Origin: Acholoe squamosa
Lineage: Eukaryota > Annelida > Polychaeta > Phyllodocida > Polynoidae
Length of the DNA: 64,000 bases
Direction: 5' to 3'
Assembly (NCBI GenBank): GCA_949317995.1
Contig: OX439049.1
Span: forward strand, 15,004,395-15,068,394
Positions 1,182 through 49,189 of this stretch are shown here, one piece after another (position 1 is the stretch's first letter; each line of letters starts with the position of its first letter). The position numbers were made by a program, and so were the translations under genes. The notes under the pieces were generated by a model. The model saw only the letters and a list, made by a program, of their open reading frames with translations. It searched no databases and was not told the origin of the DNA.

Positions 1182-1184
1182 TAG

Positions 1185-2708: not shown

Positions 2709-2864
2709 CCATTCGTTTTGGATGACTCAGTACCTAATTTCCTTCATGGGGCAGTGTTCATCAAGGTATATTGTAATCCTTGATGCAATAATTTCCCACT
2801 GTTTTAGGGGGTCATCCTCAGCATAATATTCATCCCAGTCATCCTCAAGTAGATCTTCTCACAG

Positions 2865-10425: not shown

Positions 10426-11099
10426 GGTGTAACCAGCAAATTGGGGACATTCATGGGAACACACACCTACAAACTGGGGACATCTTGCGAACCGGGGACG
10501 GCTCACTTCGCATGACCTTGAGAAAAGGGGGGCAATGGGTTTGGGTATCACAAATGACCTTGAAAAATGGTTATGAACATGATTTCTAGTGTGTCAACAA
10601 AATGTCCCCAATTTGGCCCGGAGCAACTTGTGCTGTGTGTAAAAAGTAAGAGCTATTTTTTGTGAATTTTTGCCTGTGTGTAAAAGTCCCCAATTTGTTT
10701 TGCACACTGAGAGATCTGTGTGTCCCCAGTTCACCCAGTGATCTGGGTGTATTGCCTAATTAGCTTTATTGCCATTTCTGACCTCTTAGGGATTAATCCA
10801 GTGTATTTGCATAAAAATTGTCACAAATTTGAGCCAGACATTGAATCTGTGTGCCTGCAAACTGAGGAATTTCCTTAATAGATCCTGTGTGTCTACAAAG
10901 TGGGGACATGACTTCACAGTGTGTGCTTGCAAACTGAGGCCTAAGGGACTTTCTCTTGGGTATGGTCAAATGCAAAGAGTGTAAACAAACTGAGGTCTTG
11001 ATACTTTTCTACCCCTATACAAGAGCATTCAGTCTATTTACGAAGAATAGACACATTTAAACAAGGACAAGACATCATTTTCTAGCTGTGTGCTCAAAC

Positions 11100-14847: not shown

Positions 14848-15775
14848 CCCAAGGGTACCCCACTCTGAAGCAGTCACAAATTGAACTTTTCTAACCAGCG
14901 ATCTAGCAACCCATTTTTATATATAGTGTAACCAAAATGGCAGGACCCCACACTCCAGGGTGGTGACTAAACAAGGATCCCACATCCCAGGATCAGAAGG
15001 TGTATGAACCAGGAAGGTGTCTGTATTGTCTAATTCTCATGATCTTAATGGGACAGGTCTTATTTAGTTCTGTGTGCATAATTGCGCACATGATATCCCA
15101 GCATGTATTAGGGTCCCTGCTATAATAGAAGTTGTGCAAGTCAAAAGACTTAAGTGCTTGATGAAAATCATTTTTGACATAGTACCTGTATGATCTCCCA
15201 ACAAATTAGATACTAGTCATGTTTAAAAAATACATATCCTTATCCATGCACCTGCCTACCCCTTTTTACACAAATTTATATTGATCTATATTGATGTACC
15301 AATTCCATGATATCAGTGATATCACCAACATGCGCACTAAAATGACAGGACCCCACACTCCAGGGTGGTGACTGAACAAGGATCCCACATCCCAGCAGCA
15401 GAAGGTTTATGAACCAAAAATGTGTCTGTATCAAGGGAACATTATAGATATTTACCTGCATGCAGCAATGTCTAATAACAATTCAATTCTTGTGGTCCAC
15501 ATTCATACAACAATAGTGAATTAAATTTCTGGCCCTTTTCTCATCTGAATTAATGTACACTTGAGTATTACCATCCAATAATATGTCAGTTAATGAAAAC
15601 TAAAAAAAAAAATGAGAATGTTGATTGAGAGCAGACTTTGGGTCTATGAGTAACATGAAAAGTGATGTATGTATGTTTTTATTCCTGTCATATAGAGCCA
15701 ATACCTTAATTAATGTGACCAGAACCTTAGGTTAATTGGGTCACAGAAACAGGCAAATTGTATACTAATCCCTGC
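14848..15775 (+). repeat. Direct duplication, copy 1
   Basis: The sequence from about 14858 (taccccactctgaagcagtc) through 15770 is repeated at 17909-18715 in the same orientation with few substitutions. An internal repeat occurs within it: the words gaccccacactccagg and aacaaggatcccacatccc appear at about 14945 and again at about 15350. Confidence 0.85.
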
Positions 15776-15844
15776 AGTGCTGAAGCTTTGAAGTGGGGAA
15801 TAATGAGATCTGCAGGACCTTATGGCCTGCAAGGGGAAAAACAT

Positions 15845-16430
15845 TTCTTATAGACTGCACTCCACACAGTATGTGTATGCAAACTGAGGACATGGCCACA
15901 TAGTGTATGCCAATAGAGGATGTGGTATTAGCTAAGGTCCACACACTGTGTGTAGACAAATTGGGGACATGGCCCCACAGTGTGTCTATGCAAAAAGAGG
16001 ACTTGGTCTGAGACACAGCATGTGTACAGGCAAACTGGGGACTTAGTCTAAAATATACTCCATGCAGTATGTGTAGGCAAACTGAGGACAAAGCCATACA
16101 ATGTGTGTTAAAATAGAAGACTTTGTCTTAGATATCCTCCACACAGTGTGTGGAGGCAAACTGAGGACATGGCCACACCTCCTCCTCCCATGCAGCAGAA
16201 TTTATACAGTCAACTTTGTTTTATCATTTGACATATCACTGCTGAACAATATTTCAGCAGTGAAAAAAGGGAGGCTATGGGCTTGGGCATCAGCGATGAC
16301 CTTGAAAAAAGGTTATAAACATGATTTCTAGTGTGTCAACAAAATGTCCCCAATTTGACCTTAAGAGACTTGTGCTGTGTGTGAAAAATCAGCGCAAAAT
16401 TCCACTTTCTATAGTATAAAATCCTAGCCT
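15845..16430 (+). repeat. Second block of the gaggacat minisatellite plus duplicated tail
   Basis: Bases 15845-16180 are degenerate units of the minisatellite at 11.1-12.4 kb. Bases 16195-16225 repeat the unusual string near 12440 (agaatttatacagtcaactt). The part 16275-16390 resembles 10530-10640, and 16330-16560 is duplicated at 17690-17908. Confidence 0.75.
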
Positions 16431-22531: not shown

Positions 22532-24319
22532 TTAGACCTTTGCAAAGCCAATGTCAAATACATTGGGGTCATTGTCAGGCCACTCCCACGGCTTAACAAT
22601 GGGTTTGATTTCCTCCATGAAGTCAAGTACATACTGGAGTTGTTCGAAGCTGAGGAAGTTGCAGATGGTGAACCGTACGACGCTCTTTGAGCGAGGTGAG
22701 GCAGGGTAGAAGTGAGGGCTTGGGTAGATATGTGCCTTGATAAACATGTCATACACCTCCTTAGCAAAGTCAACCTTTCCTACAACAAATGGAATGATGT
22801 TGGTCTTGGCACTCTGTACATAGAGTCCATTGTAGCCACGCTCCATGCAGCCATTACGGAAGAATTCAATCTTGGCGTTGAGCTCGTCTCTGCGCCAGTT
22901 GTCATTTTTGATGATCTCGAGCCCACGGAGATGGCGAGCTGCCACACATTCTTGGGGAGCCAGACTGAAGATGGGCATGGAGCCCATGTAGGTGAGCAAA
23001 TGTTTGCCTTCATCGGTGTCATCATTAAAGATAATGAGGCCAGCACCAGAACCAAATGCCTTACCAAGAGATGTTGTACGGAAGGGGACATCCTTCTCCA
23101 GACCCTTCATCTTAACTAATCCTTCACCCTCTTCACCAAAGATACCTAGGGCATGGGCTTCATCAGCAATCAATATACAGCCATGCCTCTTGCAGACATC
23201 TACCATATCTTCAATGGGAGTGATGGTACCAAGGGCACTGTACACAGTGTCGATGCAGACTACGCCGGGTCCATGTTCCTTGATAAGCCTCAGCAGATCG
23301 TCCACACTGTTGTGCTTGAAGTACATGGCATCATTACGGCCAGCAGCTCTGGCACCCAGTGGGAAGGTGGCATGGGCATACTTGTCAATGTAGATGGGCA
23401 TAGGGTTCTCACAGAGAATGAGCTGGAGTACGTTGATGTTTGACTCCGTACCTGAGTTGGTCATCATACATTTACTGGCACCCAACCATTTGGCTGCCTT
23501 CTCTTCAAACACTCTGACAAGAGAGTGCTGGCTACGTGGGTAGCATGCAGACCTGAAAATGGGGAAAAGCAAAATTACTACTAAAATTGCAGACCATATT
23601 CTAATGTTTCAATGGATTCTAACTTGTCCTAATGAAATTTAGTGGATACAAATATCTAGTTTCAAGTGGCATGATTATTGGGTTCCACCCATGATTCTTT
23701 TCCCCAGCAAAACAACGATGTCCAGCAAGTCAGGGATTCCTGAATGTCTATATTGGAATACTATTTGACCGCATTGCTAAACAAACTGGAATATTCATAA
23801 CTTGCTTTGCTTAATGGAATGAAAGTGATTAGGTGGCCATTTTTGACTTGCTGAAAAAAGTGGGTTTTTACCTCCATAACCCCCATAGATTCTAATGTTG
23901 TCTATTTTAGAGAAGATTGTGTCATTCAATATGCATTGCTCTGAATTTATAATTAAAATCAAATGCAAGAACCAAAAATGTACATACCTGTTGAAGCTAA
24001 TGCGACCATTTTTAATGACGTATTCTCCCTCAATACGGTTCAGCTCTGGGTGTTCTGCAAGGGCCAGGTAGTCACAACTGGAGAAATCATGGTCGCCCCT
24101 TGACACATCGTGGTGCATGAGGTCGATGTCATTCTGGTGGAAGGCCCCGGCCAGGTACTGGGAGAGGAAGCGTTGTTTGCCTTCACCATACAAGTCACGT
24201 TTCTCTGTCTCTGCAGCTGTAGACTGGCTAACGGCAGGTTGTGATACCTTGATCTGCCGTGAGATGGCAGCACAAAGCTGGCTGCTGGGCCTCACTGCAG
24301 CCCTGAGTGTACTGAACAT
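22532..24319 (-). CDS. CqsA-like PLP-dependent alpha-oxoamine synthase, copy 1 (450 aa)
   Basis: Two coding exons, 24319-23988 and 23552-22532, join through a GT-AG intron splitting an Arg codon (phase 2) to give 450 residues. Residues 1-30 are Arg/Ser/Ala-rich without acids, as in a mitochondrial presequence. The fold-type I core follows: CDYLALAEHP (about 82), MTNSGTESN (141), YAH with the PLP-stacking His171, HGPGVVCIDTVYSALGTITP (204), DEAHALG with Asp241, and SLGKAFG with the Schiff-base Lys275. The family (ALAS, KBL, BioF, serine palmitoyltransferase, CqsA) condenses an amino acid or related amine donor with an acyl-CoA. The YSALGTI(T)P pattern is closest to bacterial CqsA as I recall it. 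The substrate is unknown. The start is preceded by a splice acceptor and CACC, so a 5' non-coding exon lies upstream. An upstream in-frame Met (24346) lies in that intron. Confidence 0.9.
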
Positions 24320-24323
24320 GGTG

Positions 24324-26451
24324 CTGAGGGCAGAAAGACAAAACAATAGATTTCTGTAATTTTCATGAATTATGGGCTGAGGACAGAGAAAGAAAAGTGT
24401 ACATTTTGCAGTTTATGAGATGAATCAGAAGGACAATAGATTATTATTTTTTAAAAAAAGGAAAGATATTTTGAACATTTGTGCCATTATATAGACAACT
24501 CGAATAAAGGTGAATCATAGCAGAAAATGACCAATTGCATTTTTTTGTAGGGCCACCCCGAGAATAAACCTGTTTCCCATCACCACATACAATAAAGATT
24601 TTGATTGGAAGAATCCTTTTGACGAAAAAGCCCCATCACAAAAATGTTAGAATATGGATATATGAATTAGGAATATCGATAATTTCAGTTCATCACTACA
24701 TCATCTCAAACCATTAAGAAATAACATCTTCATCTTATCAAGAAATGTTTTTTTTTTCTTTTTCATGGTATGGTGGAGAGAAGCCTAAATTGTTGGGGGG
24801 GGGGGTAATTGATTTATGTACTGCGTCAATTATGTAAATTTACATGAATGCATTTCTCATGGATATCGAAATATTACAATTGACAAAATACCGCACTCAC
24901 CCCTCATAGAGAAGCTTCACCCTTTAAATCCCTCCTTTGGCACCCCTACTTCACCAACCCCCCCCCACCCCCACCCCCTGTTATAGATGTTGGAACATGT
25001 TATATAAAACGCCTGTAGCAGGCATCATGTGATAACCTGTACAAGGTTCATCAGTTTACTAATAGAACAGGTGGACAGTACTGGAATCATGGTCGCTATC
25101 ATCTCCTATCATTGCCTCTCTAATGGCACATGGCCTTATCTCTGTGTCCAGGTTCTGTTATCTCTTATCTCCCCAGTCTCCTTTATTATGTATAAGGATC
25201 AACGATCATATGTAATAGTCTGTGACATTAAACTTGGCCCTGGTCAGATGTTACACAAGTCGATGACTGCCTCTGACATTGCCGGGTGCGAACATTGTGT
25301 AAGCTGGACGTAAAGGATTGAGTAGCATTAAAACGGTTTTCTAGTAATATCAATATAAAATACCATTGGCATTGACCATATCAACTGTACCTTTTCACAC
25401 TATTTGTAAGCACATACCTACAACGTGACTAAAGTGTAGGTAATACCCACATGTTAGGAGTATGGTATGATGGGAGTTGGGCACGCGGGGGTGGGGGTGC
25501 TAGGAATGTGATTGAAAAGCTATACACTTGAATCTAAGGGTCTAATATGGAAAATATAGACATGTCTTTGAGTTGCCAAAGGCAATTGTACGAAAGCAAA
25601 ACTTCAAAGCTATGTTATCATGCAAAAAATTAAAAAGCGCCGTTCTGGCAAGTTTTAGTATTACTTTTATTATCAGCAGGTGTAGATAAGATAAGGGAAT
25701 CCTCCTAAGGTGGGTGAGACAGGTAGGATTAAGTAAGTAGTGACCAGTTTTATCGGTGCTGTAATCCCGCCTGATAAGAGGGTGGAGACTGGACCCTGGT
25801 CCCGGATTCTGCTTGATATCAGGAAAAAGAACTCTAAGTGATGGGAACAAACATAAAAGGAAATTTGGCAATATGGGCAGATGGCAATGTGCAAGGATCC
25901 CAGACGAGTGGCAAAAAGACGATGTGGCCACGACGATGTGGCTAAAACCATCGATGTGGCCATACAGGCTAGACGATGTATAAAATTTGTATTGTGTCAA
26001 TCTGAGTCCTATGGTGGGCTATATTAGCATAATATTCATAAACCATGTATAATTATATAAATATGCAAAACAATACGCCCTATGCCATCAATAAGTTTAT
26101 ATAGTCCCTCCCAATCCGAATAATTCCTACCCCTGAGAAACCAATTGAAATATATTGGCCACAACGTCCTTTGGTTACATCGTCCATTATTGTGTAGGAA
26201 CCATTCTAATATCCCTCTGTTCTGTTATCCCTAAGGATATTGTCCCTGTCGTAGAGTTAGAAATTGGGTACATTGTAGCTTTAAGATACTAAGAATATAA
26301 TGGGAAAATATGTGCGTATTCAACTTGACAAATAAAAATGGTTAAAAATGTGAAATCTAAAATAAAAATTAAAAATAAATCGGAGGTCGGCTGTTTTATG
26401 AGGTCAGTCGAAAGAGATTTACATTGAGCAAAATCCTAGGTTGTAACGTCT
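24324..26451. other. Upstream intron/spacer of the 22.5-kb gene
   Basis: The acceptor tctgccctcag on the minus strand ends at 24324, so the first part is intronic; the non-coding first exon was not located. The interval includes a G10 run near 24798 and a C9/C5/C5 block at 24959-24980 (G-quadruplex-prone on the minus strand). A small gatgtggcc(a/t) repeat cluster lies at 25920-25975. No other gene is supported. Confidence 0.5.
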
Positions 26452-26637
26452 ACTGCATGAATGTAGGGATTTAAGCTCATTTCATATTGCTTAAAGAAGA
26501 ATATATACTTCTATTTAAGCAAGTTTAAGTTCAGTAAATGTCACCTAAACTTTTGGTAACTTTTCTGGAGCTTAAACTTGCTTAAATAGTCAGTTTAAGC
26601 AATCGGAAATGTGCTTACATCCCTACATTCATACAGT
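26452..26637. mobile_element. Palindromic MITE, 186 bp
   Basis: The ends are inverted copies (actgcatgaatgtaggga on the left, tccctacattcatacagt on the right). The similarity continues inward, with ttaagc(t/a)catttc against gaaatgtgcttac and an inner pair tatttaagcaagtttaag / cttaaacttgcttaaata. It is essentially a full-length imperfect hairpin with no coding capacity. Confidence 0.7.
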
Positions 26638-27110
26638 GACATAAGTCGTAAAAATTCCTTCCTCAATTCCTTCTTCAAAAAGCCTTGAGCACCAACTTCA
26701 CACTAGGTATGGAATGGAGCGCTCAACAAAGCTGGGTTCTGGGGGACTACCCTGTCCAACATCGCTACCGTAAATCCTCGCGTATAAGACTCGCCCTAGA
26801 GGAGGCTGTTTCTAAAAGTTTGAATGTGGCTCTGTTTTCGTAGGGGTGGCAGGGTGAATTTTTCACAATTTCAAATTTTGATGAAATGGCACCTTCAGCC
26901 ACAACAAGCCTCTGCGCCTACTTTTAATGCCACAGACTCGGGCCGCTAGCCTCTAGGTGGCACTGCTTACTTTTATGCATTTATCCCGGTAGCATCATGT
27001 CCCTTGTTCTGCATGATGCTTCATTCACGATGATATATTCATGCAGCATGGGTGATTGAAAGGGGTCTATGGACAAAAATGTGCATACTGGAAGAATGAA
27101 TGCACACATA

Positions 27111-27299
27111 AGGGAGTGTTCATTTTTTAACAACAGGGGGGGGGGGTTGGTGAGTTTGAGGGGGGGGCGTAAAATATTTTGACCTCTCCTGAGGGGGGGG
27201 CGAAAAATATTTCGACTGCTCTTGAGGGGGGGGGGCGTAAAATTTTTAGACCCTTCTCAATGAGGCACGAATAAATGTAATTTAGATTTAGATGACAGA

Positions 27300-27360
<61 letters not shown>

Positions 27361-27424
27361 GATCAACATGGTAAAAGGTATGCCTGCGCACCCCCTCAAG
27401 GGTGTACCTTTTACCATGTTGATC

Positions 27425-27484
<60 letters not shown>

Positions 27485-29718
27485 GGATTATTTTGTTAAT
27501 TTGTGAGACAGTATAAGAATTGAATGTTGATTCATATGTTATCGAGGATCAGTTTATCAATCTACTGATGCTGAACTAAACTTGTCAGTGGGAATGAAGG
27601 TCCTCTCTTTCTTCATTGTTCACCTAAATGCCCGCATAGCAAAATCCATTTTGATTGATGGTATTTCATTTCTTCACATGGCTTGAATCATGAATAACAT
27701 GATATATGGGCAATGACATTTTAATTGTCACTATGATGGATTGACTTCCATAATACAGGTGGTTTGTGCTGAATGAACAATGAAGAAAATTCAAACCAGA
27801 ACTTTGATTCATTAAAGTAGGGCCAGCAGTTTAGTTACTGATCTGGTTAGTTTTCATTATATTATCATTATTAAATGTTACAATTAAATACATGTTATAT
27901 ATAGCCATAACATGAAATATGGAATATTCAAGTTTACATCAGAATTCATTACTGAGCGGCTCTGAGTGATTGGAATAGGGAGGTGGGGTTGGGGCCATTT
28001 TCCTAAGAAAATTTTGAAATTTTCCATGTCAAAATATTATGCATTCTGGTGACTTCTGTGAATCATTTCATAACTTTGGTTCTATTAGGAATATTTGAAA
28101 AATTCTTTCACTATTCGAAAGCCCAGAGTCTGAAGAACATTCTGAAGGTAGATGTCGCCATTTTCAAGGCCATTGTCGCCACATTTTGGCTACATGGCGA
28201 CAGCTGCCCAGCCCTGCCAGACCGGACAGAATCAGATGGATCCATGCAGACTGAACAGAACCAGACCATACAGACCCATATGAGATGGACTCGACGGGGA
28301 TAAACCCGACCCATCCAGTTAGGTCATCCAGTCATACCTCAACAAAATGCACCATTTGACGTCTCGATATTCAAAATTTTCCTGGGGGACATCTCCATAT
28401 ACCCGTAGGCTCCCTGAGCCAAAAACAGTGTATATGATGCAGGGGTAGTAAAACCTTGGGGTCAGGTGGGATGTGTGCCCCCCTGCACCATCCAGTCATA
28501 TGTCACCAAAATGCACCATTTGACTTCTCAATATTCAAAATTTTCCTGGAGGACATAGCCCCATACCCCCCTCTGATTCTTACTCTCTATCACACATTAA
28601 TCACACTAACAATAAAAAAAAACATGCCCAAGAGTTTTAAACATTTTTCTTAGAAAGCAGTATGCACATACTTAGAGTTGGCCTGGCCATTCGCTCACAA
28701 ATTGACCTGAGAATACATGATATTCTTGTCTAGATTTTCCAAATTTCCCTGGGGAATAAATCTACAGATAGTACTTTACAGCAGAATCAAGTAACTGAAA
28801 GGCTAGGGACACATCAATTCATGTCTTGGCAGTCTTCTGGTATCCAGGTTTCAAATTTCCATTAGGATAGCAAGATATCCATCATACATAAAGAGGTCAG
28901 ACGTTTTCAGAAACCCAAACCCCCAACCCATGTAAATGTTAAAGTTTTTGATTTGCAGGTTTGGATTGCTTTGGTTACCCCCTCCCCCAAACAAAATTTT
29001 CAAAGGCTGTGCTAAAACAGCCCATCTCCCATTCCCTATAGTTAAGAGTCATAAAGGCCCATGTGTGTCTGCAGCAAGTTGGTTCAGACTTAAAAGATCC
29101 TTCAAATACAGTTTGCTTGCTTGCTTTAAACTAAGACCACAGAAATCAATCTTGTGATTCATCCAGATCCATGGGATGAGATCCCATTCAAACATTTTGT
29201 ATGAAGGGTCCCTATAGTAGAATTTTAAACAGAGGGTATAGGGAAACCTCAAAAACCACCAGAATGCATAAATTTAGGCTCTAGATTTATAAAACTGTTT
29301 GACTGGGGCAGGTGATGCCCCCAGACCACCCTATACTTAGCTTGTCCTGGCTGCTTGTTAAACAAAAGACATAAGGCTAAGTAGTGTGTGACTCGCACTG
29401 CAGCTACTGATGAAATTGGTCTTGAGAAGTGGAACCCTCTTTTCAATTTCTTGCATTCCAATAGAAAAATAATAAATTGATGATAATAACTCTGGGAAGT
29501 GATCCTTTTACCTTATACTTCAGTAAAACAATTGAGTGTGATATGATGCAATGTGCTGCAACACAACTTGATGTTGGGGGGCGCAAAATATTTTGACCCC
29601 TCCTGAGGGGGGGGGGCAAAAATATTTTGGCACCTCTCAAAGGGGGGGCGGAAAATATTTTCAGGGGTAAAAACGAAAACTCACCAACCCCCCCTGTTGT
29701 TAAAAAATGAACACTCCT
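27111..29718. mobile_element. 2.6-kb interval bounded by inverted G-run ends
   Basis: The left end (TA then AGGGAGTGTTCATTTTTTAA) and right end (TTAAAAAATGAACACTCCT then TA) are near-perfect inverted copies, each followed inward by the poly-G block and gttggtgagttt of the G-run MITE family. It could be one longer element or two truncated MITEs. Inside are the TA/hairpin structure at 27300-27482 and a direct repeat of about 85 bp (28322 and 28485; accaaaatgcaccatttgac-like). No transposase frame is seen. Confidence 0.6.
27300..27482. repeat. Hairpin flanked by two (TA)n tracts
   Basis: A perfect 24-bp inverted repeat (27357-27380 and 27405-27428; tgtggatcaacatggtaaaa...) with a 24-bp spacer sits between TA tracts of about 57 and 55 bp. 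The TA tracts are themselves self-complementary, so the whole of about 180 bp can extrude as a cruciform. It may be a tiny palindromic element inserted in a TA tract. Confidence 0.85.
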
Positions 29719-29720
29719 TA

Positions 29721-31440
29721 ACGGTAAACCCATTCAAATTGTTTAAACAATCAAATAAAATTGCTATGAACAAACTGGAATTTCTCAATACTAGTGACCC
29801 AGAACAAAACTAATAGATGTATGCACAAATAAAAGAAAACCAACCAAATGGATAAATAGTAAAACCACCCCATGGTCCATGTGATAGGTCATGGGGGCCC
29901 TGGACACTGCACCTACCAGTATGTATGTAGTCGTGGTCGTACGTGTTATCTCTGTGTCCAGCCCTGTCTCTGACCACCCTGTGTATATCCATCCTCTTTT
30001 ATAGCCTTCTTATCTCACCCACCTACCTACCGTATTATGCTGTATCAGCAACTATACAGGTGTTTGTAGTCAGGCAAACTTTCCTTAACTTCTAGGGGCC
30101 GTATTATTTCTTCAAGACTACACGAAGGGGCATATATATCTTCTTTCTGTTCCCTAAATATGAACAGACCCTTCAAGAATAATCAGTCCGTTTGAAGAAA
30201 GGTCGGGCTGGGCATCTAAATTGTTTCCATCGCTTGAATGCCTGGTTAGGGATGGGATGTCAGTTTTTTTTACCCTCTGGGTCGGTCAGCAAGCGCTTGT
30301 CATTAGTCTGTTGGCTCCCTTTTTTGTTATTGATTTACATCAAAACGCAGTCAATATTTTGTACAGAACCTTGGTAAAGAACAGAAAGCGCACTCCCTAG
30401 GTATAACTTATTCCAATGTTTGGCGTTCATATACAGTACATACCATTACGGTACACTGTATGGTCATCTACCAATATTATCTCTTGGCGTTCGTGATGTC
30501 ACAGAGCAGATAACAACCCGGGTATCCTGGTTTTTGTTGGATATGACTCAAGGATGTTTCATTCCAAAAATATAAGATGAATGCAATGGTGGAAAAATCA
30601 TTTTAATATAGGTGTGATAGGGCACCAGCACGTTTATACAGGGACGTAGAGGATTCTTGGTTTATAGAAGTATTTTCAAGGTGTCGGGGTAGGTGTTTTC
30701 TTAATTTCATTTGTTTTTCTAGGGAGGGGGTTTAAGAAATTTTGCTCTTGAGTGCAAAAGAAATGTCATCCCCGTGATTTGGCGGAAACTTGCAAAATAT
30801 CAAGCAAAGTAAGGTTTACTGACCAGGCAAATGGAAGGAGAGTGTGGTGGGATTTAACCCCCAGGAAAGGACAACGCCATTCGGTACGCTAACGAGTGAA
30901 CGCACCAAACCCCTACAGTAAGAAATATATAGGTATCTAACAATAAACATTATTCATTCATCCAAATATATAATTTATTTTTAAGCGAACATATCAAACA
31001 AAACGTAAGCTACAACCAGTGGACACTAACCCTACATGTCAAAATATGTGTTTCATAATCCTTATCATTCTCAGTAAACTGTACATTGGTGTCTGCTCTT
31101 CATCTTTATCTGGTATGTAGACAGGCAGCAGTGGTTAGGGGCTTCCGTAGACAGGCGTCCCCCACAGCTTACCAGTATTTATCACTTTCACTGGTGTATT
31201 AATATATGGTCTGATGTTGGGGTCATGTTATATAAGACTGATAACGGCAATCGCACACCTTACTGAACCAGCAACAAAACAGCTGCTGCTAAGTATTGAA
31301 ACAATTCCCAGAGTGTTTCATTTAACCTAAATATAGTCACCTTGCTTTGCAATAAATGTGCGTTACCATTAACCTCAATTTTCTGAAATTTCTAGAAAGG
31401 TACGAGGCTTGCATGAGGGCGTTCCTGTGACAGGGAGTTT
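29721..31440. other. Spacer without recognised gene
   Basis: AT-rich non-coding sequence. Word-level similarity (gttatataagac) links 31227, 50238 and 24997, perhaps parts of a dispersed repeat. No supported genes. Confidence 0.45.
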
Positions 31441-31469
31441 CCACCTTCATCTGTTTGCCTGCCTGCCTG

Positions 31470-31765
31470 TCAGTCAGAGTCAGACAGAGTCAGTCAGTCA
31501 GACAGTCAGAGTCAGTCAGACAGTAAGAGTCAGTCAGACAGTCAGGGTCAGTCAGTCAGAGTCAGACAGTCAGAGTCAGTCAGTCAGAGTCAGTCAGTCA
31601 GTCAGTCAGAGTCAGTCAGTCAGTCAGACAGTAAGAGTCAGTCAGTCAGACAGTCAGGGTCAGGCCGTCAGAGTCAGACAGTCACAGTCAGTCTGTCACA
31701 GTCAGCCAGACAGTAAGTCAGACAGTCACCGTCAGTTAGTGTCAGTCAGTCAGTCTGTGAGGATT
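31470..31765 (+). repeat. (CAGT)n / gtcagtcaga satellite
   Basis: About 300 bp of cagtcagagtcagtcagaca-type repeat. The open frame rich in SQ and VSQ across it is a by-product of the repeat. A shorter tract of the same repeat at 36800-36905 lies on the other side of the gag-like element. Confidence 0.9.
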
Positions 31766-34700
31766 TACAGTAACATTGGCTGCAGCACCCCCTAGGAGCA
31801 GCCACAGGGGACACACAGGAGTGGTTCCCTGTGAGCAGGACTGAGTCAGTTGGTTCCTTGGTTTTGGTTGATGCAGAAGCACCCCAGAATCCCAAGGGCT
31901 GACTGACCATACTACAGACTACACACCTAGACCTGTGAGTATAACATACATATAAATATTACATTGGTGCAAGGAGTGTGCTGTTCTTATCCATGTGGAT
32001 ATAGTCTATTGTTTGTGGATTGGCTCATTCTGTGTTGGTTTTAGTCATTTCTGTGTGGTTTCATATACACTTTGGGTCCTTCTAGTCTTATCTTTGAATA
32101 TCACAGGATTCTCATAATCTGACATAGGGAGGAGTTAGGATTGTTCCCTGGGTCTATTGTTAGATGTTGACAATATTCCTTTGGTTCATTTCCTGGTGAT
32201 TACAGGGTTCTAGGTCTATTCCTATGGGCATACCATGTTAATTGATTGTTAGCTTCACACACATATAGTGTGTTGCTTTGTGTTGGGACCCATGTGGGTA
32301 TAGCCCTCCAGGGCTGACACCACATGGGTTGGGTGTTGGGTGTATACAGTGATACACATAGCTAGGAGATAGAGAGCCTTCATGTTACATAGGCTAGCCA
32401 TTATATACCATTACCCACTGTTTTAAAGGTCCTCTAGGTGGGTGTGGAGTTGAAGTTTATATTTGTATGATTTGCACTACATGCATAGATAGCATCTAGT
32501 GTGCTTTGTGAGTAGAATCTTTGGAGAGGACCAATTGGCTACCCCCCCCCTCTCAGTGTGAAGTCCTGGATACATGTACATGTATGCTGCATAGTGGGAA
32601 AGGGCCTCTACCCTATTGCAAACAAAATAAAATCCAGGCCTATTCAGGTGTGGTCTTTAGTCATTTCTGTGCAGTTATATATAGATTTGGTTCTCTTATA
32701 CTGTCTTTGGCTATACCAGGATTCTTTTGTTTGAGCACAGAGGTTATATCAGCTTTAATGTTCCAGGCTGACTGTCAGACACTGGAGGCACCCTGACTTG
32801 ACAATTCTCATAATCAGTTATCCCTTTAATGTTAATTTCTGGTTTGGAGGTTGTGTTTTGTGGGACAGATATTCTCACAGTGGGATTGGGATCCACATGG
32901 CTGTTGCCTTCCTAGGGTATGCACCACATGGGTCAGATAGATAAAGGGGGAGAGAGGAAAGATAAGTGAGAGGGGCTCCCACCCTACATTCAGTTGTTTT
33001 TATCCCTATCTTCAGAGATGTAAGTTGTCAGGGAATTCCCTGAAAATAGGGATTTCAAAAATCTTTAGATTAAGTCAAAATAGGGATATGTAAGGTCTTT
33101 AGGGCCAGATTTTATTTTCATATTCATAATAGTCAGTGTGAATATCCATGTTCTTCAAAATGAAGAGAAATATGTGTTCTTGCCCTAATGATAACCCCCT
33201 GCTATACACATACCCAGGCCTGTGTTGGCTGCTTTAACCAGTGACTCCACTGAGGAACAGGGAGGCCCCCTGGTGTAAGCAGAGAGAGTCAACTGGGCAG
33301 GGGGAGGCCTGGACAGGGGATCTCAGTGACATACTCAACTAGGGGAGGTGAAGGGAATACTGCTCTCTGATTGGTCTAAAATAATCAGCTCAAGACTAGT
33401 CTACAGTTGCCCTCCATACAGCCATTTGGGGAAACCCCTTCAGAAGTGCCATGTGAAACTCACCCTAACCACCATACATCTACTCAATGTCTGAACACCA
33501 CACTCACCCTCAGCCACCCTTAATTCTGAAGCATTATAGGTTGAAAAAGATTAGGGGTGGGGTTGGTGGGGAGGGGGGTATACTAAACTCATAGTTCCAT
33601 ATACATGTATTGTGGGGAAGGACATTAATTGTATACATGCACAATGCATATATAGACTTTAACACCCCCCCCCACCCCCCAACCTGCGATAATAGCTTTT
33701 CAGGGATTTTCTCAATACCCAACTTACATCTCTGTATCTTACTGGGGTAGGTCAACTCTACAGGCAGAAGTCCTTGTTACAGAGATATAATTCTATATAT
33801 CATTGTAAGCTATTTGCATGTCTAGTCCAGGCTGTAGCATATTGTATAAGATTTTGTGGATTTGCCTTTCCTGTAATTACTGGGGCAGTCATATCTCTGA
33901 AAGCTGCAACTCTATGTGAAATAGGGTAATATTTCAATAGTTTCAAATAGTTTCTATTGGAAATCATATTGCAATTTTAAGATTCCTGCAGTGCAGTGGG
34001 TGCACATCCTCTTTCCTAGGAATTACCCCAATCATCCTGACCACAGAGGGGTTTCATACCTTGTCACTCCTTCTCAGTACACTCACCCCATCCACCACAG
34101 GAAGTGTGTGACCAGTACACAGGGTAAGTCTGTGTTTCACTGAAACTCAATAAATCCACACCCACACTGGAAGCAGCTCTGTGACACACCCACTTACTCT
34201 GGGTGCACTCAAGCTGTATATACCCTGACCTCCTCCTGTAACTGTGTCACTCCTGTAACTGTGTCACTAAGTCACCAAGTGTTGATGACATATACAGCCA
34301 CAGGCAGCACTATATTTGTAAACTATACACTGTTTAGACCCAACTTGCTTTCTTGAATATTGATGCCATTACCATTATTGCTGATTCTTTCACTGTGATC
34401 TATTAACATGAATCCATTGAAACTCTAAGCTGCATATGTATACTTTGTACAGCCCTAGCTGACACTTGTTTCTGTCATTCAGTAGAACTGTGTACTCTGG
34501 GTGTTTGTCAAAGAAGTTCTAGATACTTATCATTATAGCCAGATTATACTGTTCTGTCCAATTTTCATAGCAGTCACTTATACCTATACTGTGTCTAGCC
34601 CTAAGTAGCAATTCTTACACAGTATAGCAAGGCTCATTTCACATCTATGTATTGTTACCTGCCTTACCTTTCTCATTAAGGCAACCCTTTATTCTATACT

Positions 34701-35363
34701 GTGTTTAGCTCTAAGTGACACAGTCAGCTCATCTTATAAGTCAACAGTTTTTGAGTGGCACTTCGGATACTCTACTGTATACTAGTTGGCCATCATAGCC
34801 AATCTGTTGAGGCATCTGATTGACTATTGGGAGCTATATTGTGTTCAGTCCTTGCTGGCTCCTGCTATCAACTTTATCAGCACTTACAGTCATATCAGGC
34901 TCATTCACTGTTTCAATATCATCTATACTTAAATTGGCTTTAGGTGGTAGCTGTTTGTACCATTGCAACTTATGTGTACAGGCCATCCTCACATTCAGTA
35001 TTACCTATACTTCATCCAGTTTAAGGTTGCATTTGTTTGGTGCTGATTTGTCTGGCCATCCTCATATTCAATATCAACTACATATTTCATTCAGCACCTT
35101 GTGTTACAACATTGTATAATATAGAGATTACACCCTATGATAAGTATTTGTCTTCAAGTCGCTTGATTGAATAGTTGGGACTATACTGCATTCAATCCAA
35201 GTTGATGTATCAGTCTCCTCATTATTGCTTGTAATCCCATCTGATTGGCCAGTGATACTTTGTCTAGTCTTAAGGAGAATTCCTTTGACACTTCTTCCAC
35301 TGGGGTTATTCCATCTTAATCTTATCATTGATTATTGCCACATCCCTACCTATAGCATCAGCC

Positions 35364-36835
35364 ATGGATATTAACACTGCTTCCCTGGCTGAGCTGCAGT
35401 CCATCAAGGGAATTGGTCAGCAACGGGCTCAGCTTGTGATAGACTGTGTACGTACTCATGGGCCTTTCACTGACTTTCCCAGTATGACGCGACACTTGGA
35501 CGCACAGGTCGTCTCTAGCCTGAAACAGGCCTTCGAAACTGGTCGAATAATTTGTGGGGTAACTAAACCATCTACAAACGTTGCTGGTTCTCAAGGGTCC
35601 CTAGACCTTCATGCTAGGTTATTGGATATGGAGGCTCGAAATAAGACAATGGAGGCTCAGAAAAGGGAGGCAGAGGATAAGCTTAGACTTGCGAATGAAA
35701 AAATACAGTCTCTAGAAAGCTCCAGTCAGTCTTCTAAACTGACCCAGGCCGCAGCATCTTCCATTGTCATGCCGGCTACCTCATCTGATGAGGAGTTGTT
35801 GCGCTCCTTAAAAACGTTCACTGCCCTGTTTGAGACCAGGTTACAGTCTACCCCCAAAATTCTTGATACCGCGCAGGCCCCGCCACCTCGTACCAGTACC
35901 CCCAACAGTGCCAGGCCGCTGCCTCCTTTAGAGACACCTGTAACACATATGTCACCAGTCCGTGGCCCAGATGGTTACCAGCAGGTCCGGGATGCAGGTT
36001 ATGTTTCTACACTGAAAACCTGGAAAATCCGAAACTAGTCAGCGGTGACGACTTTAGGTCCTCCAGTTGACGATACCTAAAACTACAGCTTTAGGTAGTC
36101 AAAATGATGACTTTAGGTCATCATCCTGATGACCTGAGTTGTCAGTATGACAATACTGACAGTACAGAGTTGTCATACTGATGACTTACGTTGTCAGGAT
36201 GATGACCCAAAGTCGTCATTTTGACTACCTAAAGCTGTAGTTTTAGGTATCGTCAACTTGAGGACCTAAAGTGGTCACCGCTGACTAGTTTCGGATCTTC
36301 CAGGTTTTCAGTGTACCACTCGCAGGATACATACTGATCCTCCTGCTGACTCAAGTCTGAATGATCCACAGCATCTGCGGGGTAGGACTAACCAGAGGGG
36401 ATCGCGGGCAAGATGTTCATCTCCTCTATCTGAGTCAGATTCCACTTCATCGAGTAGCGATTCTAGCCCAGTCCCTCTATCTCGACAGTCTCAAAAACCA
36501 CTGGGCAAGATACCTACATATGATGGCAAAGTGAAGTGGCAGGTCTATTGTGAACAGTTTAAGCAGACTGAGGGTTCAGTGAGGAGGAGTCTCTCAGGTT
36601 GCTTGTCCAACATCTCCGAGATGATGCCCTTGAGTTTTTTGGGTCTCTACCTAAGTCCACAAGGCGAGACTATCGGAAACTTAGAAAGGCCTTGAAGGAA
36701 CGCTTTGGGTCTCGAAATCAGCCAGAAACTGCAAGACGGGAGCTTCAGGCTCTCAAGCAGGAGACAGAGGAGTCTCTGGATGCATTTTCTCAACTGAGCC
36801 AGTTAGAGTCAGTCAGTCACTCAGCCAATTAGTCA
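35364..36835 (+). pseudogene. Gag-like polyprotein with N-terminal helix-hairpin-helix, disrupted
   Basis: From the Met at 35364 the first 60 residues read as a ComEA-type helix-hairpin-helix (DINTASLAELQSIKGIGQQR and GPFTDFPSM), a nucleic-acid-binding fold. A coiled-coil stretch (about 85-125) and a Pro/Ser-rich linker follow. At 36010 a 304-bp MITE breaks the frame. Beyond it the frame resumes at 36314 with a Ser-rich segment and a PTYDGK motif as in Ty3/gypsy Gag, shifts frame at about 36560-36590, and ends with a capsid-like Retrotrans_gag helix block (DDALEFFGSLP, LRKALKERFG). Insertion, frameshift and loss of pol make it a pseudogene. An in-frame Met at 35328 adds 12 hydrophobic residues and is the less likely start. 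Confidence 0.75.
36010..36313. mobile_element. 304-bp palindromic MITE with TA duplication
   Basis: The element reads CACTGAAAACCTGG inward from both ends, with TA at 36008-36009 and 36314-36315. Almost the whole length folds back on itself (gaaactagtcagcggtgac / gtcaccgctgactagtttc, then tacctaaa(a)ctacagcttt and inverse). Nested smaller hairpins sit in the centre (gttgtcagtatgacaatac). TA duplication and CACTG-type ends suggest Tc1/mariner mobilisation. It interrupts the Gag frame, and exact removal with one TA restores that local frame. Confidence 0.88.
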
Positions 36836-36905
36836 GTTAGTCAGAGCCAGTCAGTCAGTCACTCAGAATTAGTGAATAAGTCAGGTACTCAGTGAGTCAG
36901 TGAGT

Positions 36906-37832
36906 CAGCCAGGGAAGGCTTGCCATTTGAGCTGAAGATAGGGACTCGAATGGGCACGCTGCTGGCACCTAGTGTTACATTTTGGAACCATCAGTCATAA
37001 GCCAATCCAGTTATGAAGCTAACCCTCCTTTGCTGTCATTGCGATAACTCTGAAATTGAAAGCTACTGTCTAGCAGTCATATGAGATCAGCCAGTGAATG
37101 TTGGCATGGCCTATGTGCCACGTGCTGTTAGATCGCACCGTTTATTATCGAGGTGCTAGAATGCAATCCTCAGGGAGCATCCCACAATTGATGTATGAAT
37201 CCATAAACCTATGAAGCCCCCTTAAAGGGCCGCTGGTGCATTAATCTATCATGCCAATTATCATTCATGATGCATGAATACAGCACTGGCGAGTAACTCC
37301 CCACAGCAACATCCAAGCATCATTCCAGGGCCCACTATGATGCACCAAGTACTGTGTGGGAAGGCTGCACTGTGGACGTGGTTTAATGCCTAATAGTTGA
37401 ACTTGAAGAGACAGCGTTTGAGTCATCATAAAGTTTCCTTGAGGGGTTGCATTGTGCCATGGGCATCACAATCATTTGTCGCCATGATACAACAATGAAG
37501 TGCTAGGCACAATTGATGCATGGTGCGGCCCTAAGTAAGGTCAACATGACGGATTGATGCAGTAGTGATGTGTAGAACCGCCAGGGGTGAATTCATGCAT
37601 CATGACTATCACTGAACACAGTGCGTCCAAGCTCTTTTTGCAGCCTTTCAATGATTGATTACTGTGTGGCAAAGACACCCAAACCTGTTACTGTTACTGG
37701 AATACACTATTGAAATATTGAACAGTGAAATGATATCGTTCTCAGGTATCATTATGCCTCGAATCATTAGTATTTTCAAGTCAAACTAAGCTTGGTCATC
37801 ATAACAAAAGATTCAATTGACATTAATACTAG
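36906..37832. repeat. Spacer with dispersed palindrome copies
   Basis: No gene. Copies of the gatgcat palindrome family lie at about 37195-37345 (best at 37265-37330, gatgcatgaatacagcactg with gagtaact) and 37540-37610. Confidence 0.55.
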
Positions 37833-37838
37833 TTTATT
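37833..37838 (-). other. Probable poly(A) signal of the 38.2-kb gene
   Basis: Minus-strand AATAAA about 380 nt past the stop, in the same local word as the paralogue's signal at 22159. Confidence 0.6.
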
Positions 37839-38215
37839 CAAATAAAAAAATAGTATTCTGAACATTCATTCAATATCACAGTTGGTATCACATACTGCCA
37901 GAGTATGGAGCACTTGATGATCTGAGTAAATTATGAATAATATGCATATTCAATAGGCAATGAAATAACTGTTACTTAATATATGCAAATCATATTTGAG
38001 TATTTTAGATATAATAGTCTAGGTCCCTTCCACCATTGTGTAGGTTCTACACAAAGTCAATATTAAACAGGATGCTATTTCTCAAGAATCTACAATTACA
38101 CCCCTTAAATAATGCTACAAACTTCATGCTACCACAATGGGTTTTAAATCTTCTATGGCATGTGTACAATTGTAGAACCTTCAGAAATAACCTCCTAAGC
38201 TAGATTCTAGAGACT

Positions 38216-40329
38216 TTAGACCTTCTGGAAGCCAATGTTGAAGATGTCTGGGTTGTTATCAGGCCAATCCTCAGGCTTGACGATAGGCTTGATCTCCTCC
38301 AGGAAGTCAAGCACGTCCTGGAGCTGCTTGTAGCTCAGGAAGTTGCAGACGGTGCAGCGGAGCACACTCTTATCACGGGGTGATGCTGGGTAGAAGTGTG
38401 GGCTTGGGTAGATACCTCTCTCAATGAACATATCATACACATCCTTTGCAAAGTCAACTTTACCTACCACGAAGGGAATGATGTTGGTCAAACTGTTCTG
38501 TACAAAGTGTCCATTGTAGCCTCTTGCCATGGCACCCTGGCGGAAGAACTCGGTCTTCTCCATCAGCTCGTCTCTACGCCACTGGTCAGCCTTCACCATT
38601 TCAAGTCCGCGGATGTGTCTGGCAGCCACACATTCCTGTGGGGCCAAACTGAAGACAGACATGGAGCTCAGATGTGGGATGATCGTCTTACCATCTACCA
38701 TTTCCTCTGAGAAGATGACCAGCCCTGCACCAGACCCAAAGGCCTTCCCCAGGGAGGTGGTACGGAAGGGGACCTCCTTCTCAAGACCTTTGGCTTTCAC
38801 CAGGCCTTCACCCTGCTTGCCATAGGTTCCCAAGGCATGAGCTTCATCAGCAATCAGGATACAGTTGTACTGCTTGCAGATATCGACAATCTCTTCAATG
38901 GGGGTGATGGTACCGAGTGCACTGTATATGGTGTCAACACAGACCACTCCACGTCCATTCTCCTTGATCAGCTTCAGCAAGTCATCCACACTGTTATGTT
39001 TGAAGAACTTGGCATCATTGCGTCCAGAGGCACGGGCTCCAAGCACGAAGGTGGCATGGGCATACTTGTCAATGTAGATGGGCAGGGGGTTCTCACAGAG
39101 GATGAGCTGGAGGACATTAACGTTAGACTCAGTGCCGGAGTTGGTCATAATACAGTCGGCAGCTCCCAGCCACTCTGCTGCCTGGGCCTCAAAGGTCCGA
39201 ACAATGGAGTTTGAGTCACGTGGGTAGGCACCTGACCTGTAAGTACAGAACAGAACAAAGATGTTGAGAATTTGATAAAGAGGTGATATGGTTAATGAGG
39301 AGCCTTATGTTTTAAGGTAATGACATTATAGATGAAGCCATTTAAATGTTTCTGGCATGAATTATTGAGTCCCATCCAGGTTTTGTGCACTCCTTGCTTG
39401 CTTGTCTGTAAAGGAACCAATTACTATAACGCTGTACGTTGCCCTCGAAGTTGATACTAGACAGGGGCTGATTGTGACACCTGAAAGGTGCAATGATAAA
39501 TTTCATTTCAGTGCCCCTTTACCGCGGCACTTAATTTAGACCAGCCTTTATTTGGGACTCTTCCTCTAGACCCATACCCAGTTGGTCCACCATTTTGAGT
39601 TTTTCTGGGTCTGCCAAAACTGACAAAACACACTGATAAGACATACCATGATGGGTAGAGTATCTATGAATAGCATCCATTTCGGGGGACAAATTTGTTT
39701 GCATCTAATGAAATGTTATCAGTGCATTTCGTCAGAACCAACTCCTGTCTTGCTGTTGCGGCATATATAGTAAATGGTAACCATAAAAATCGTATATTAT
39801 TCACGTGGGAATACCAAGTTCTACTTTGAACACCATCGAAGGCACTTATAATCAACCTCATTATGGGGAAGATGTATTGGGTCCGAGTACATTTTTGAGA
39901 TATTCAACCTTAAATCTTGCTTGATTTAACTAAATGTACCAATCCTCCTCCCATACTAAAATATTATTTCTGTAATGAGAAAAACATGGCCTACCTGTTG
40001 AATGTGATGCGGCCATTGTCCCTGATGTATTCTCCCTCAATACGGTTCAGCTCTGGGTGTTCAGCGAGGGCGATGTAGTCACAACTACAGAAGTCAATGT
40101 CTCCCCTTGGTCCGTGGTAGAACTCCTTAGATGGATCCTTCTGTGCGAAGGCAGCATTGAGGTACTGAGTGAGGTGGCGTGCTTTCCCTTCAGAGTACAA
40201 GTCTGGCTTGCCATCTTTGGTGGTCGAGGTAGACTTGAAACAGGCAGGTTGTGATACCTTAGCCTGCCGTGAAAGGGCAGCACAGAGCTGGCTGCTGGGG
40301 CGGACGGCGGTTCTCAGTGCACTGAACAT
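38216..40329 (-). CDS. CqsA-like PLP-dependent alpha-oxoamine synthase, copy 2 (451 aa)
   Basis: Exons 40329-39995 and 39236-38216 join at a GT-AG phase-2 intron at exactly the position used by copy 1 (after ITFN, splitting Arg112), giving 451 residues. All key features match copy 1: a basic mitochondrial-type leader (MFSALRTAVRPSSQ), CDYIALAEHP, MTNSGTESN, YAH with His172, DEAHALG with Asp242, and SLGKAFG with Lys276. Over the 145-residue core TNSGTES to GLVIF I count 24 differences from copy 1, about 83% identity. A splice acceptor lies 5 nt before the ATG (gCACC-ATG), implying a non-coding first exon upstream. Both copies are on the same strand, this one upstream, consistent with tandem duplication. 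The acyl-CoA and amine substrates cannot be read from the sequence. Confidence 0.92.
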
Positions 40330-47045: not shown

Positions 47046-48335
47046 TCACAATTTAGAGCTCTCCAAGTCAAATATGTCCTCCACATCACCCAGAGGGTCC
47101 ACCACCTGCCCAGGTATCCTCAAATAACGACACGTCTTCAGCTTGGCAAACATGGCGGCCAGCGTCTCTGGTCCCTGTGTGTCCTCCATGAAGCTTTGTT
47201 CATCTGTGGCGTCATCACGGTCATACCCATCCCCATGTTGTGACAGTTCCTTCAGTTTGCGAAAGCTTCTGGGTCCATCACTGGTTGAAGCTAGTTCATT
47301 TGTACTGTTATGTGAAGTTGATCCTTGGTTGTTATCTCCCGATGCTGAGGAATCACTTTTGGGAACTGCGCTTTGATCATCCTTCGGTGTGTATATTGGT
47401 GACTCAACCCATTTAGGTTCTGCCTTTGGCTTTTTCTTATTGGCCCCTTTCTGCACTTTGTCCACTTCGTCCTCAGCCTGCCACTCCGGTAGAAGAATAG
47501 TCAGGAACCATTTACCATCTTCATCTTCTTCTGTGGGCTCACCCAGTTCATCCTCAATATCCTTGTAGAGAACCTCGGTCTTGGGGCAGTACACCAGGCT
47601 GCTACAAGAGGCCGCTGGTGATGAATCACGTGACAATACAAGGATCTGCCTGCCACAGGAACTGTCCCGTGAAGAATCCCGCAAGGTGGCAGCACTGTCT
47701 AGACTAGTGATAAAAGCCTCCTTCCGGGAACGTCTTGGTAAGCGGGGTGAAGTCGTTGGTGACACACTGGTTCTACGCATGTTCGGAAGTGAAGAGCTGC
47801 GGCTGTGTGCCCGTGCCCGACGTCCACGTGTGATGACGTCACTTCCTGTCTGGGCTGGAAGTCCAACTGATGACTTCAGTAGAGCCTCTCTGAGTCCTGG
47901 GGCTGCGCTGGCACGACGTGACGTTGCAGGGGAGCTATCACGTGAACTTACATGACGTACATCTGGGGCACTTCCAGCCAAATCTCGGGGGACACCAACC
48001 AGGCTCCCATTGGCTGGTAGAAGCGGAAGCTTGTTGGCGTCGACGCAGTCACCACTTCCCCTGCGGTGCGGTGAAACCGACAAATGCAAGTTACGTGCCC
48101 TGTTGTCCTTCTCTCTCTTCAGTTGTTCTGATCTTGCCTTCATCTTAGCCATGTCAGAGTCAAGCCGGCTCATCTTCTTCTTCAGTTCAGTCTCTAGGCC
48201 GGCCTTTTCCTTGCTGAGCTTCCGGTCGGAGCGTTTAAGGTAGCCATTGACTCTGCGGGCATTGGAGGAACCCATCATCTCAAAGTCCATCAGCCACGAC
48301 TCAGCCACCTGCCCCACACTGCTCATGGCACTCAT
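47046..48335 (-). CDS. Unrecognised Ser/Arg-rich protein with N-terminal helical region (429 aa)
   Basis: I do not recognise this protein. Starting at the Met at 48335 it is 429 residues in one exon. Residues 27-82 are strongly charged and probably a long helix or coiled coil (NARRVNGYLKRSDRKLSKEK onward). Residues 83-245 are low-complexity, rich in Ser and Arg, with RDSSPA twice (about 132 and 236) and PKA-type RRAS and RRTS sites. An acidic stretch EEDEDG leads into a hydrophobic WFLTILLPEW. A second Ser/Asn-rich linker precedes a conserved-looking C terminus (ETLAAMFAKLKTCRYLRIPG). The frame stays open 23 codons upstream, but a good splice acceptor (tttgtccatag) ends at 48352, so those codons are probably intron and a 5' exon lies further right. 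High GC and consistent frame against AT-rich surroundings support a real gene. Confidence 0.75.
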   Translation of the reverse strand: MSAMSSVGQVAESWLMDFEMMGSSNARRVNGYLKRSDRKLSKEKAGLETELKKKMSRLDSDMAKMKARSEQLKREKDNRARNLHLSVSPHRRGSGDCVDANKLPLLPANGSLVGVPRDLAGSAPDVRHVSSRDSSPATSRRASAAPGLREALLKSSVGLPAQTGSDVITRGRRARAHSRSSSLPNMRRTSVSPTTSPRLPRRSRKEAFITSLDSAATLRDSSRDSSCGRQILVLSRDSSPAASCSSLVYCPKTEVLYKDIEDELGEPTEEDEDGKWFLTILLPEWQAEDEVDKVQKGANKKKPKAEPKWVESPIYTPKDDQSAVPKSDSSASGDNNQGSTSHNSTNELASTSDGPRSFRKLKELSQHGDGYDRDDATDEQSFMEDTQGPETLAAMFAKLKTCRYLRIPGQVVDPLGDVEDIFDLESSKL

Positions 48336-48351
48336 AGTGTAACGAGCTGCT

Positions 48352-49189
48352 CTATGGACAAAGTATAAATTGCTCAATGTATAGGCTTTTCCAGTGGGGT
48401 CCAAAGCTGTGAAATGCTATCCTTATGGGCCGTATGTTTTGTAGGTGGTAAATTCAATAAAGAATCTCAAATATTATGTTTTGTCCCCCAGATGTATGGA
48501 TCACTAGACTGGATCACGGGTCTAGGACTTCACTCCTGACTCCACTCTATAAATTCTGGATGTCAGCAATTTCTCATTTCTTACTGTGTTCCCTGCTCAG
48601 TTCAGTTTAAAATTATGACTTTCCTTCTCCATTCTGAGAGGTTTATATATTGGGATTTTATTTACTTCCATTACTATCAAACCTAGAACTAGGAACCGGG
48701 TTAGTATATTAAAACATTGGCATCCCACACTGCTGACCCCTTATTGCCTGACTTAGTTATAACAGTGAGGTAATATGGTTTGTGACCCACAGCTACGGCA
48801 TATAAGACATTAACCCTTGGATGGCTCTATTTTAGCTTCAGGTTAGCTATCCCTTATTGTATTCGTGAACCAATGCAGCGCAAAACTGTATTATACCCAT
48901 ATGTGGTCAGCACCATATGGTTATGTAATATTCTGGCGAGTTACTCACCAGTGAATCATTCATGCATCATCAAATGTTTGCCTGACACCTGCAGGCTCAA
49001 TGTCTCTCTATAGCATTGCACTGCTGACAATGCATGTGGTTAACCAGGTATAGAGTGTATTAATTCTACAAGATCAACATGATGCATGCATGCAGCATTG
49101 GTAAGTTACTCACCAGGGTACATATGTACATGATGAATTTGATTAAAGCATTCACTCACCAAGCGGTCTTTGAAGGGATATAGGAGGTC
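48352..49189. other. Probable intron/spacer upstream of the 47-kb gene
   Basis: AT-rich. Contains dispersed palindromes at 48885-48970 (ggcgagttactcaccag) and 49076-49140 (gatgcatgcatgcagcattg with gtaagttactcacc). No exon could be identified. Confidence 0.5.

Follow-up and report, generated by a model that had tools for sequence, protein, structure and literature searches.

Two neighboring genes in the genome of the polynoid annelid Acholoe squamosa raise the question of which reaction an enzyme with bacterial closest relatives would catalyze in an animal. The genes, here called A and B, lie in a stretch of 64,000 nucleotides (contig OX439049.1 of GenBank assembly GCA_949317995.1, positions 15,004,395 to 15,068,394 of the forward strand), which we refer to as the window; it is part of contig 15 (C15) of a 1.48 Gb assembly of 63 contigs. 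Both genes encode alpha-oxoamine synthases (AOS), and their nearest characterized relative is CqsA, the CAI-1 synthase, by sequence, curated profile, fold and tree. In the explanation that we favor, with a probability of roughly 0.6 for the whole of it, A and B arose long ago by tandem duplication of a single nuclear gene of the animal, represent a deep AOS lineage beside the bacterial CqsA-like synthases, and would join an L-amino acid and an acyl-coenzyme A (acyl-CoA) in mitochondria to form an alpha-aminoketone.

We rebuilt both genes from the raw sequence. Each consists of two exons on the minus strand, without internal stops, and they encode proteins of 451 (A) and 450 (B) amino acids (coordinates in Table 1). 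The intron interrupts a homologous codon in both (NR/S), and 13,896 bp separate the two genes. A reading made earlier from the sequence only had described two intact same-strand genes of pyridoxal phosphate (PLP) enzymes; this was confirmed, as the outer coordinates agreed, the cited motifs were found and His172/171, Asp242/241 and Lys276/275 (A/B) were in place. Both start codons have a CACC-ATG context and directly follow the AG of a candidate acceptor (TTTCCAG-GCACC and CCCTCAG-CACC). Thus, each gene might have a non-coding 5′ exon.

The assignment to the family was consistent among different methods. A phmmer search of the PDB gave three CqsA sequences as the best matches (161 bits, E = 3.4e-46 for A; 172 bits, E = 1.8e-49 for B), followed by KBL for A (117 bits) and SPT for B (102 bits). 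The best NCBIfam model was NF005526, alpha-hydroxyketone autoinducer synthase, with 263.6 bits for A and 258.8 bits for B, far below its curated cut-off of 428 bits. The models of the other AOS families scored lower, and neither protein reached the cut-off of any of them: BioF, which came second (TIGR00858, 180.5 and 166.9 bits for A and B, cut-off 426.45), ALAS (TIGR01821, 138.1 and 116.4, cut-off 338.55), KBL/GCAT (TIGR01822, 132.5 and 110.1, cut-off 493; NF005394, 153.3 and 132, cut-off 460) and SPT (NF047599, 143.3 and 137.2, cut-off 500; NF047600, 131.2 and 118.9, cut-off 640). An AlphaFold model of residues 113-451 of A, which correspond to exon 2, had a mean pLDDT (predicted local distance difference test) of 91.1. 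Foldseek placed CqsA chains in the top six positions for this model, and then entries of ThAOS, ALAS, KBL, BioF and SPT; the best 50 of the 1959 PDB matches were all AOS entries by title. By sequence, profile and fold, therefore, the best match of the pair is the CqsA/LqsA/JqsA group (PDB 2WK8 and 3HQT; NF005526), as the sequence-only reading had proposed when it placed the proteins closer to CqsA than to ALAS, KBL, BioF or SPT.

Relatives were also sought among prokaryotes, with one genome for each of 84,980 species. The best 80 of 431 relatives showed 29-36% identity, and a closer relative may exist among the prokaryotes. No relative was found in the viral contigs that we searched with the A1 and A2 queries. 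Among the 15 of 19 records of a phage collection that were examined, six were annotated as KBL or BioF and the other nine carried no annotation. As separate observations on the bacterial genes, plasmid pTM3 of Tistrella mobilis, typed as conjugative, carries a CqsA-like gene (L003, 5791-7071) beside a gene that by eye resembles threonine dehydratase, and no sensor kinase was noticed by eye among its listed open reading frames of at least 200 amino acids. Two further CqsA-like genes (L023 and L068) came from metagenome bins labeled as Rickettsia typhi and Klebsiella pneumoniae, names that we suspect to be wrong.

Three trees were built. The first comprised the two window proteins, 30 of 85 CqsA-like rows and 15 other AOS, several of which were partial; the second kept the same 30 CqsA-like rows and left out long BioF rows; and the third had 97 rows, with 80 of the 85 CqsA-like rows (L029, L034, L036, L048 and L073 excluded). 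The 85 rows include many close Vibrio sequences. The other AOS were split from the remainder with support of 100/99, 100/100 and 100 in the three builds, and the bacterial CqsA-like rows were kept apart from the window pair in all of them (94/87, 73/58 and 86). The 75 of the 80 loci from the prokaryote scan that entered the third build stood with CqsA, apart from the other AOS. As an unrooted tree of three groups cannot reveal which two are sisters, we took the rooting from the minimal ancestor deviation. The lowest deviation, 0.202, was obtained for a root on the branch that separates the other AOS from all remaining rows (next-best branch, 0.287); this rooting unites the window pair and the 30 CqsA-like rows. 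Similarly, no window protein was less than 27.2% identical to any of these 30 rows, or more than 26.1% identical to any of the 15 other AOS. On its very long branch, the pair lies beyond the bacterial CqsA-like clade or on its margin, if not within it. Placement inside ALAS or KBL, which had been named beforehand as refuting the idea, did not occur. Together with the PDB search and the NCBIfam scores, the trees led us to reject membership in ALAS, KBL, BioF or SPT, and the pair is best read as an uncharacterized eukaryotic AOS lineage outside the better-known groups.

The genome has its own copies of the familiar animal enzymes. A genome search with TIGR01821 gave 13 matches, none above the cut-off: seven exons of ALAS on C1, two of GCAT on C10, two of an SPT-like gene on C1, and the two window genes. 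The four best pieces of the ALAS gene were 72-78% identical to human ALAS2, and the other three 39-62%. The GCAT gene was 54-64% identical to Salmonella KBL over the longest pieces and grouped with KBL at 100/100, and the best piece of the SPT-like gene matched SPT-type rows from bacteria at 46-48% identity. All three genes are separate from the pair. A genome search with exon 2 of A found only the two window loci at E ≤ 0.001 (six candidates scored). Two matches to PF00155 (class I/II aminotransferase) on C17 were considered as further copies and rejected, because they read as ordinary class I aminotransferases.

A and B share 326 of 451 residues (72%). The similarity is uneven, with 27/35 in the first 35 residues, 18/41 in residues 36-76 and 252/339 in residues 113-451. 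Among 450 codon sites, the two genes differ at 97 first, 61 second and 200 third positions, and the ratio of nonsynonymous to synonymous substitution rates (dN/dS) between them was 0.12-0.15 by three methods, a value that is imprecise as dS exceeds 1. This indicates that both copies are under purifying selection. The two introns, as well as the 2 kb upstream regions, gave only short weak matches to each other, so the duplication is not recent. Between the two copies lies a plus-strand open reading frame with a ComEA-like helix-hairpin-helix (HHH_3, Pfam), followed by frames that look gag-like; it is probably a mobile element sitting between the tandem copies. Part of this region had no Pfam match (Table 1).

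The proteins had also been said to carry apparent mitochondrial leaders. No acidic residue occurs in the first 38 residues of A or the first 36 of B, and the first 35 contain five and four Lys or Arg, respectively. Only 0.3% of 20,000 random draws of 35 residues from the remainder of the same protein equaled this composition, and the amphipathic 18-mer starting at residue 4 ranked 3 of 433 in A and 1 of 432 in B. These features of composition and amphipathicity make a mitochondrial presequence plausible, although they are not proof of one.

The residues on which AOS chemistry depends are present. The PLP lysine (Lys276/275), the aspartate to the pyridine nitrogen (Asp242/241), the stacking histidine (His172/171) and the second histidine (His245/244) are all kept, and the alignments bore out the retention of the first three that had been claimed. 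The carboxylate arginine of A, Arg405 (Arg293 of exon 2), is invariant in a 50-row alignment and conserved in B. In a comparison with 100 reference rows, the two copies conform at 30 of 34 near-universal AOS columns; both deviate at Cys83/82, Ser149/148 and Thr174/173, and A alone deviates at Ile86. In these catalytic residues and in fold the pair resembles ALAS, which is described as mitochondrial in animals.

From this family membership we infer an alpha-aminoketone pathway, which would proceed as follows. The leader would direct the enzyme to the mitochondrial matrix, where Lys276/275 would carry PLP. An L-amino acid, its carboxylate held by Arg405/404, would form the external aldimine; the quinonoid would then attack the acyl-CoA in a Claisen condensation, CoA and CO2 would depart, and an alpha-aminoketone would be released. 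The donor and the chain length are weakly indicated by two sites. The first is the position of ThAOS V79, which lies near the donor side chain and influences the choice of donor; according to PMC11906848, KBL has Val at the equivalent position, ALAS has Thr, and both AONS and SPT have Ser, and PMC4525017 numbers the Thr of ALAS as Thr83. The window pair has Ser113/112, as do 82 of the 84 CqsA-like rows with a residue there, in difference from ALAS and KBL and in common with BioF and SPT, with which it also shares the AOS fold. This gate may admit a donor larger than glycine, of the alanine, 2-aminobutyrate or serine type, with glycine still possible. The second site is the acyl pocket, which in CqsA is formed by H30, V32, F79, F257, I263, F264, C346, P348 and A349 (PMC3285556). 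We mapped seven of these positions. The residues at F79, F257, I263, F264, C346, P348 and A349 are Y, H, V, F, F, P and A in gene product A, and Y, Y, I, F, F, P and A in gene product B, so that 3/7 (A) and 4/7 (B) are identical to CqsA of V. cholerae. Phe393/392 stands at the position of C346 and is also found in all three KBL rows with a residue there; this KBL-like replacement is a weak argument for an acyl chain below the C8-C10 of CqsA.

Several observations weigh against this reading. The branch of the window pair is long (2.94 changes per column in the first tree), which makes its joint with the CqsA-like clade unsure; the tree program flagged the meeting of long branches in both tree runs, and the support that keeps the CqsA-like rows apart from the pair varied between the builds. 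Diagnostic columns were derived by comparing the 85 CqsA-like rows with the 15 other AOS rows. Of 46 CqsA-diagnostic columns, 12 agree in both copies and three in one, six have the majority residue of the other AOS and 25 fit neither. Three replacements raise the possibility of a different chemistry. The Asn before the DY motif (96 of 99 reference AOS), which in ALAS lies near the amino acid carboxylate, is Cys83/82; CqsA Trp109, aromatic in 85/85 CqsA-like rows, is Thr147/146; and CqsA Ser266 (84/85 CqsA-like rows) is Leu309/308, in a stretch that is gapped in another alignment. The alignment is gappy around the donor-gate loop too. In PMC11906848, the V79S mutant of ThAOS is reported to work better with 2-aminobutyrate, alanine and serine but with glycine as well, which makes the inference on the donor soft. 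Variants seen in the pocket also occur among the CqsA-like rows: Tyr at F79 in 10/84, Tyr at F257 in 24/85 and Phe at C346 in 3/85.

The pair might instead be a short-chain enzyme of mitochondrial amino acid metabolism, resembling GCAT, that uses acetyl- or propionyl-CoA with another L-amino acid or cleaves a beta-keto amino acid by the reverse, thiolytic reaction. We regard this as rather unlikely. The FYPxxP near the C terminus is shared with KBL, the Phe at the C346 position points the same way, and the apparent mitochondrial leader would suit such a role. However, the proteins are closer to CqsA overall, and the gate is Ser where KBL has Val.

A second alternative takes the resemblance to CqsA at face value. 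Here the animal proteins would be functional counterparts of CqsA, making a C8-C10 alpha-aminoketone, or an enaminone derived from S-adenosylmethionine (SAM), that is turned into an alpha-hydroxyketone signal. The substrates of CqsA are given as SAM or 2-aminobutyrate with C8- or C10-CoA (PMC3285556). CqsA is the nearest relative, and the two share the donor-gate Ser and a Ser three residues upstream of the PLP lysine, in addition to the 12 diagnostic columns that agree in both copies. Both also lack the post-gate Arg and Gly found in 13/15 and 15/15 other AOS; among 16 columns diagnostic for the other AOS, six agree with CqsA, two with the other AOS and eight with neither or in a mixed way. 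On the other hand, identity to CqsA is about 30%, and several of its near-invariant residues are replaced: R241 (85/85 CqsA-like rows) is Gly, and the Trp of the AHxSLW motif (84/85) is Val/Pro in the window pair, which in addition has a eukaryotic intron and a putative leader. We did not adopt a C8-C10 product because four (A) or three (B) of the seven pocket residues differ from those of V. cholerae CqsA, an argument that is weak since some CqsA-like rows carry the same variants. Because the scores are far below the cut-off of NF005526 and 25 of 46 diagnostic columns fit neither group, the CqsA-like label of the sequence-only reading holds for the nearest relative and does not extend to CqsA itself; a true counterpart seems improbable to us. 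No animal CqsA-like enzyme was described in the open-access titles and abstract openings listed by our searches, which is weak evidence of absence as the subscription literature was mostly outside their scope; PMC3566124, which turned up in this search, deals with bacteria.

We give a similarly low chance to the view that the proteins keep the AOS fold with altered or lost chemistry, either as enzymes of another PLP reaction or as partner subunits in the manner of SPTLC1, the partner subunit of SPTLC2. The replacements at Cys83/82, Thr147/146 and Leu309/308, all at near-universal AOS or near-invariant CqsA-like positions, would be in line with it. Nevertheless, neither copy has lost the Lys, the Asp, either His or the carboxylate Arg, and purifying selection acts on both copies.

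Contamination by bacteria, or a recent transfer from Vibrio-like bacteria, is hardly credible even though the closest relatives found are bacterial, as both genes have an intron with GT/AG ends and lie on C15 of a 1.48 Gb assembly, and none of the best 80 of 431 bacterial relatives exceeded 36% identity. The introns and the contig led us to reject contamination; an ancient transfer is conceivable. The animal origin that had been assumed for the sequence was upheld by the genome size of 1.48 Gb, by the multi-exon ALAS and GCAT genes and by matches to mir-2, a microRNA family limited to protostomes. Four matches in the genome exceeded the gathering score (60 of 308,796 candidates scored), and an 18-kb stretch of C4 held three of the four; one of 14 prokaryote controls gave a match, which was below the cut-off. 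A search for the hemocyanin family, intended to test a place among mollusks, gave no match in the genome or in any control and thus does not bear on the question.

Other features of the window are listed in Table 1 with the parts of both genes. They comprise retroelement pieces, a tRNA gene, long repeats and a long open reading frame, probably a large exon that belongs to an unnamed gene.

Table 1. Positions of the two AOS genes and of other features in the window
Feature	Positions	Strand	Description
Gene A, exon 1	39995-40329	-	Codons 1-111 plus two bases of codon 112; leader (putative) and N-terminal segment with CDYIALAEHP; donor CAACAG/GTAGGC
Gene A, putative mitochondrial leader	40225-40329	-	First 35 codons; no Asp or Glu in residues 1-38; from composition and amphipathicity
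Gene A, intron	39237-39994	-	758 bp, GT...AG
Gene A, exon 2	38216-39236	-	From the last base of codon 112 to the stop after codon 451; encodes the PLP-binding large domain and the C-terminal domain, with His172, Asp242, Lys276 and Arg405
Gene B, exon 1	23988-24319	-	Codons 1-110 plus two bases of codon 111; donor CAACAG/GTATGT
Gene B, putative mitochondrial leader	24215-24319	-	First 35 codons; no Asp or Glu in residues 1-36; from composition and amphipathicity
Gene B, intron	23553-23987	-	435 bp, GT/AG
Gene B, exon 2	22532-23552	-	Rest of codon 111 to 450 and stop; His171, Asp241, Lys275
Open reading frame region between A and B	35289-36832	+	Probable mobile element
Part of the region between A and B	36285-36692		No Pfam match
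LINE-type (long interspersed nuclear element) retroelement pieces	301-3491	-	One open frame with a reverse transcriptase domain (1654-2478), another with an endonuclease domain (2868-3491)
tRNA-Ile (AAT)	5797-5875	-	54 bits in Rfam
Long repeats	11094-12342 and 15765-16127	-	Frames give units such as HTVWSVSKTKSSICLHTLCGHVLSLP in several phases
Open reading frame	47046-48416	-	456 amino acids, Ser/Arg-rich, no Pfam match at E 0.01

The AOS enzymes known from animals provide the heme precursor, process threonine-derived ketobutyrate and initiate sphingolipid synthesis. If a further lineage of AOS exists in which the catalytic residues are intact, purifying selection acts and the leader is of mitochondrial type, animal metabolism would contain at least one carbon-carbon bond forming reaction without an assigned substrate or product. 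More tentatively, at least one protostome lineage may possess, besides ALAS, GCAT and SPT, a mitochondrial AOS that is sister to CqsA and kept in two selected copies. Such an enzyme would make a new alpha-aminoketone that might serve as a signal, a defense compound or a precursor, for example of 2-amino-3-alkanols or pyrazines, and its origin would lie in a divergence or a transfer in the distant past rather than in a gene recently acquired from bacteria.

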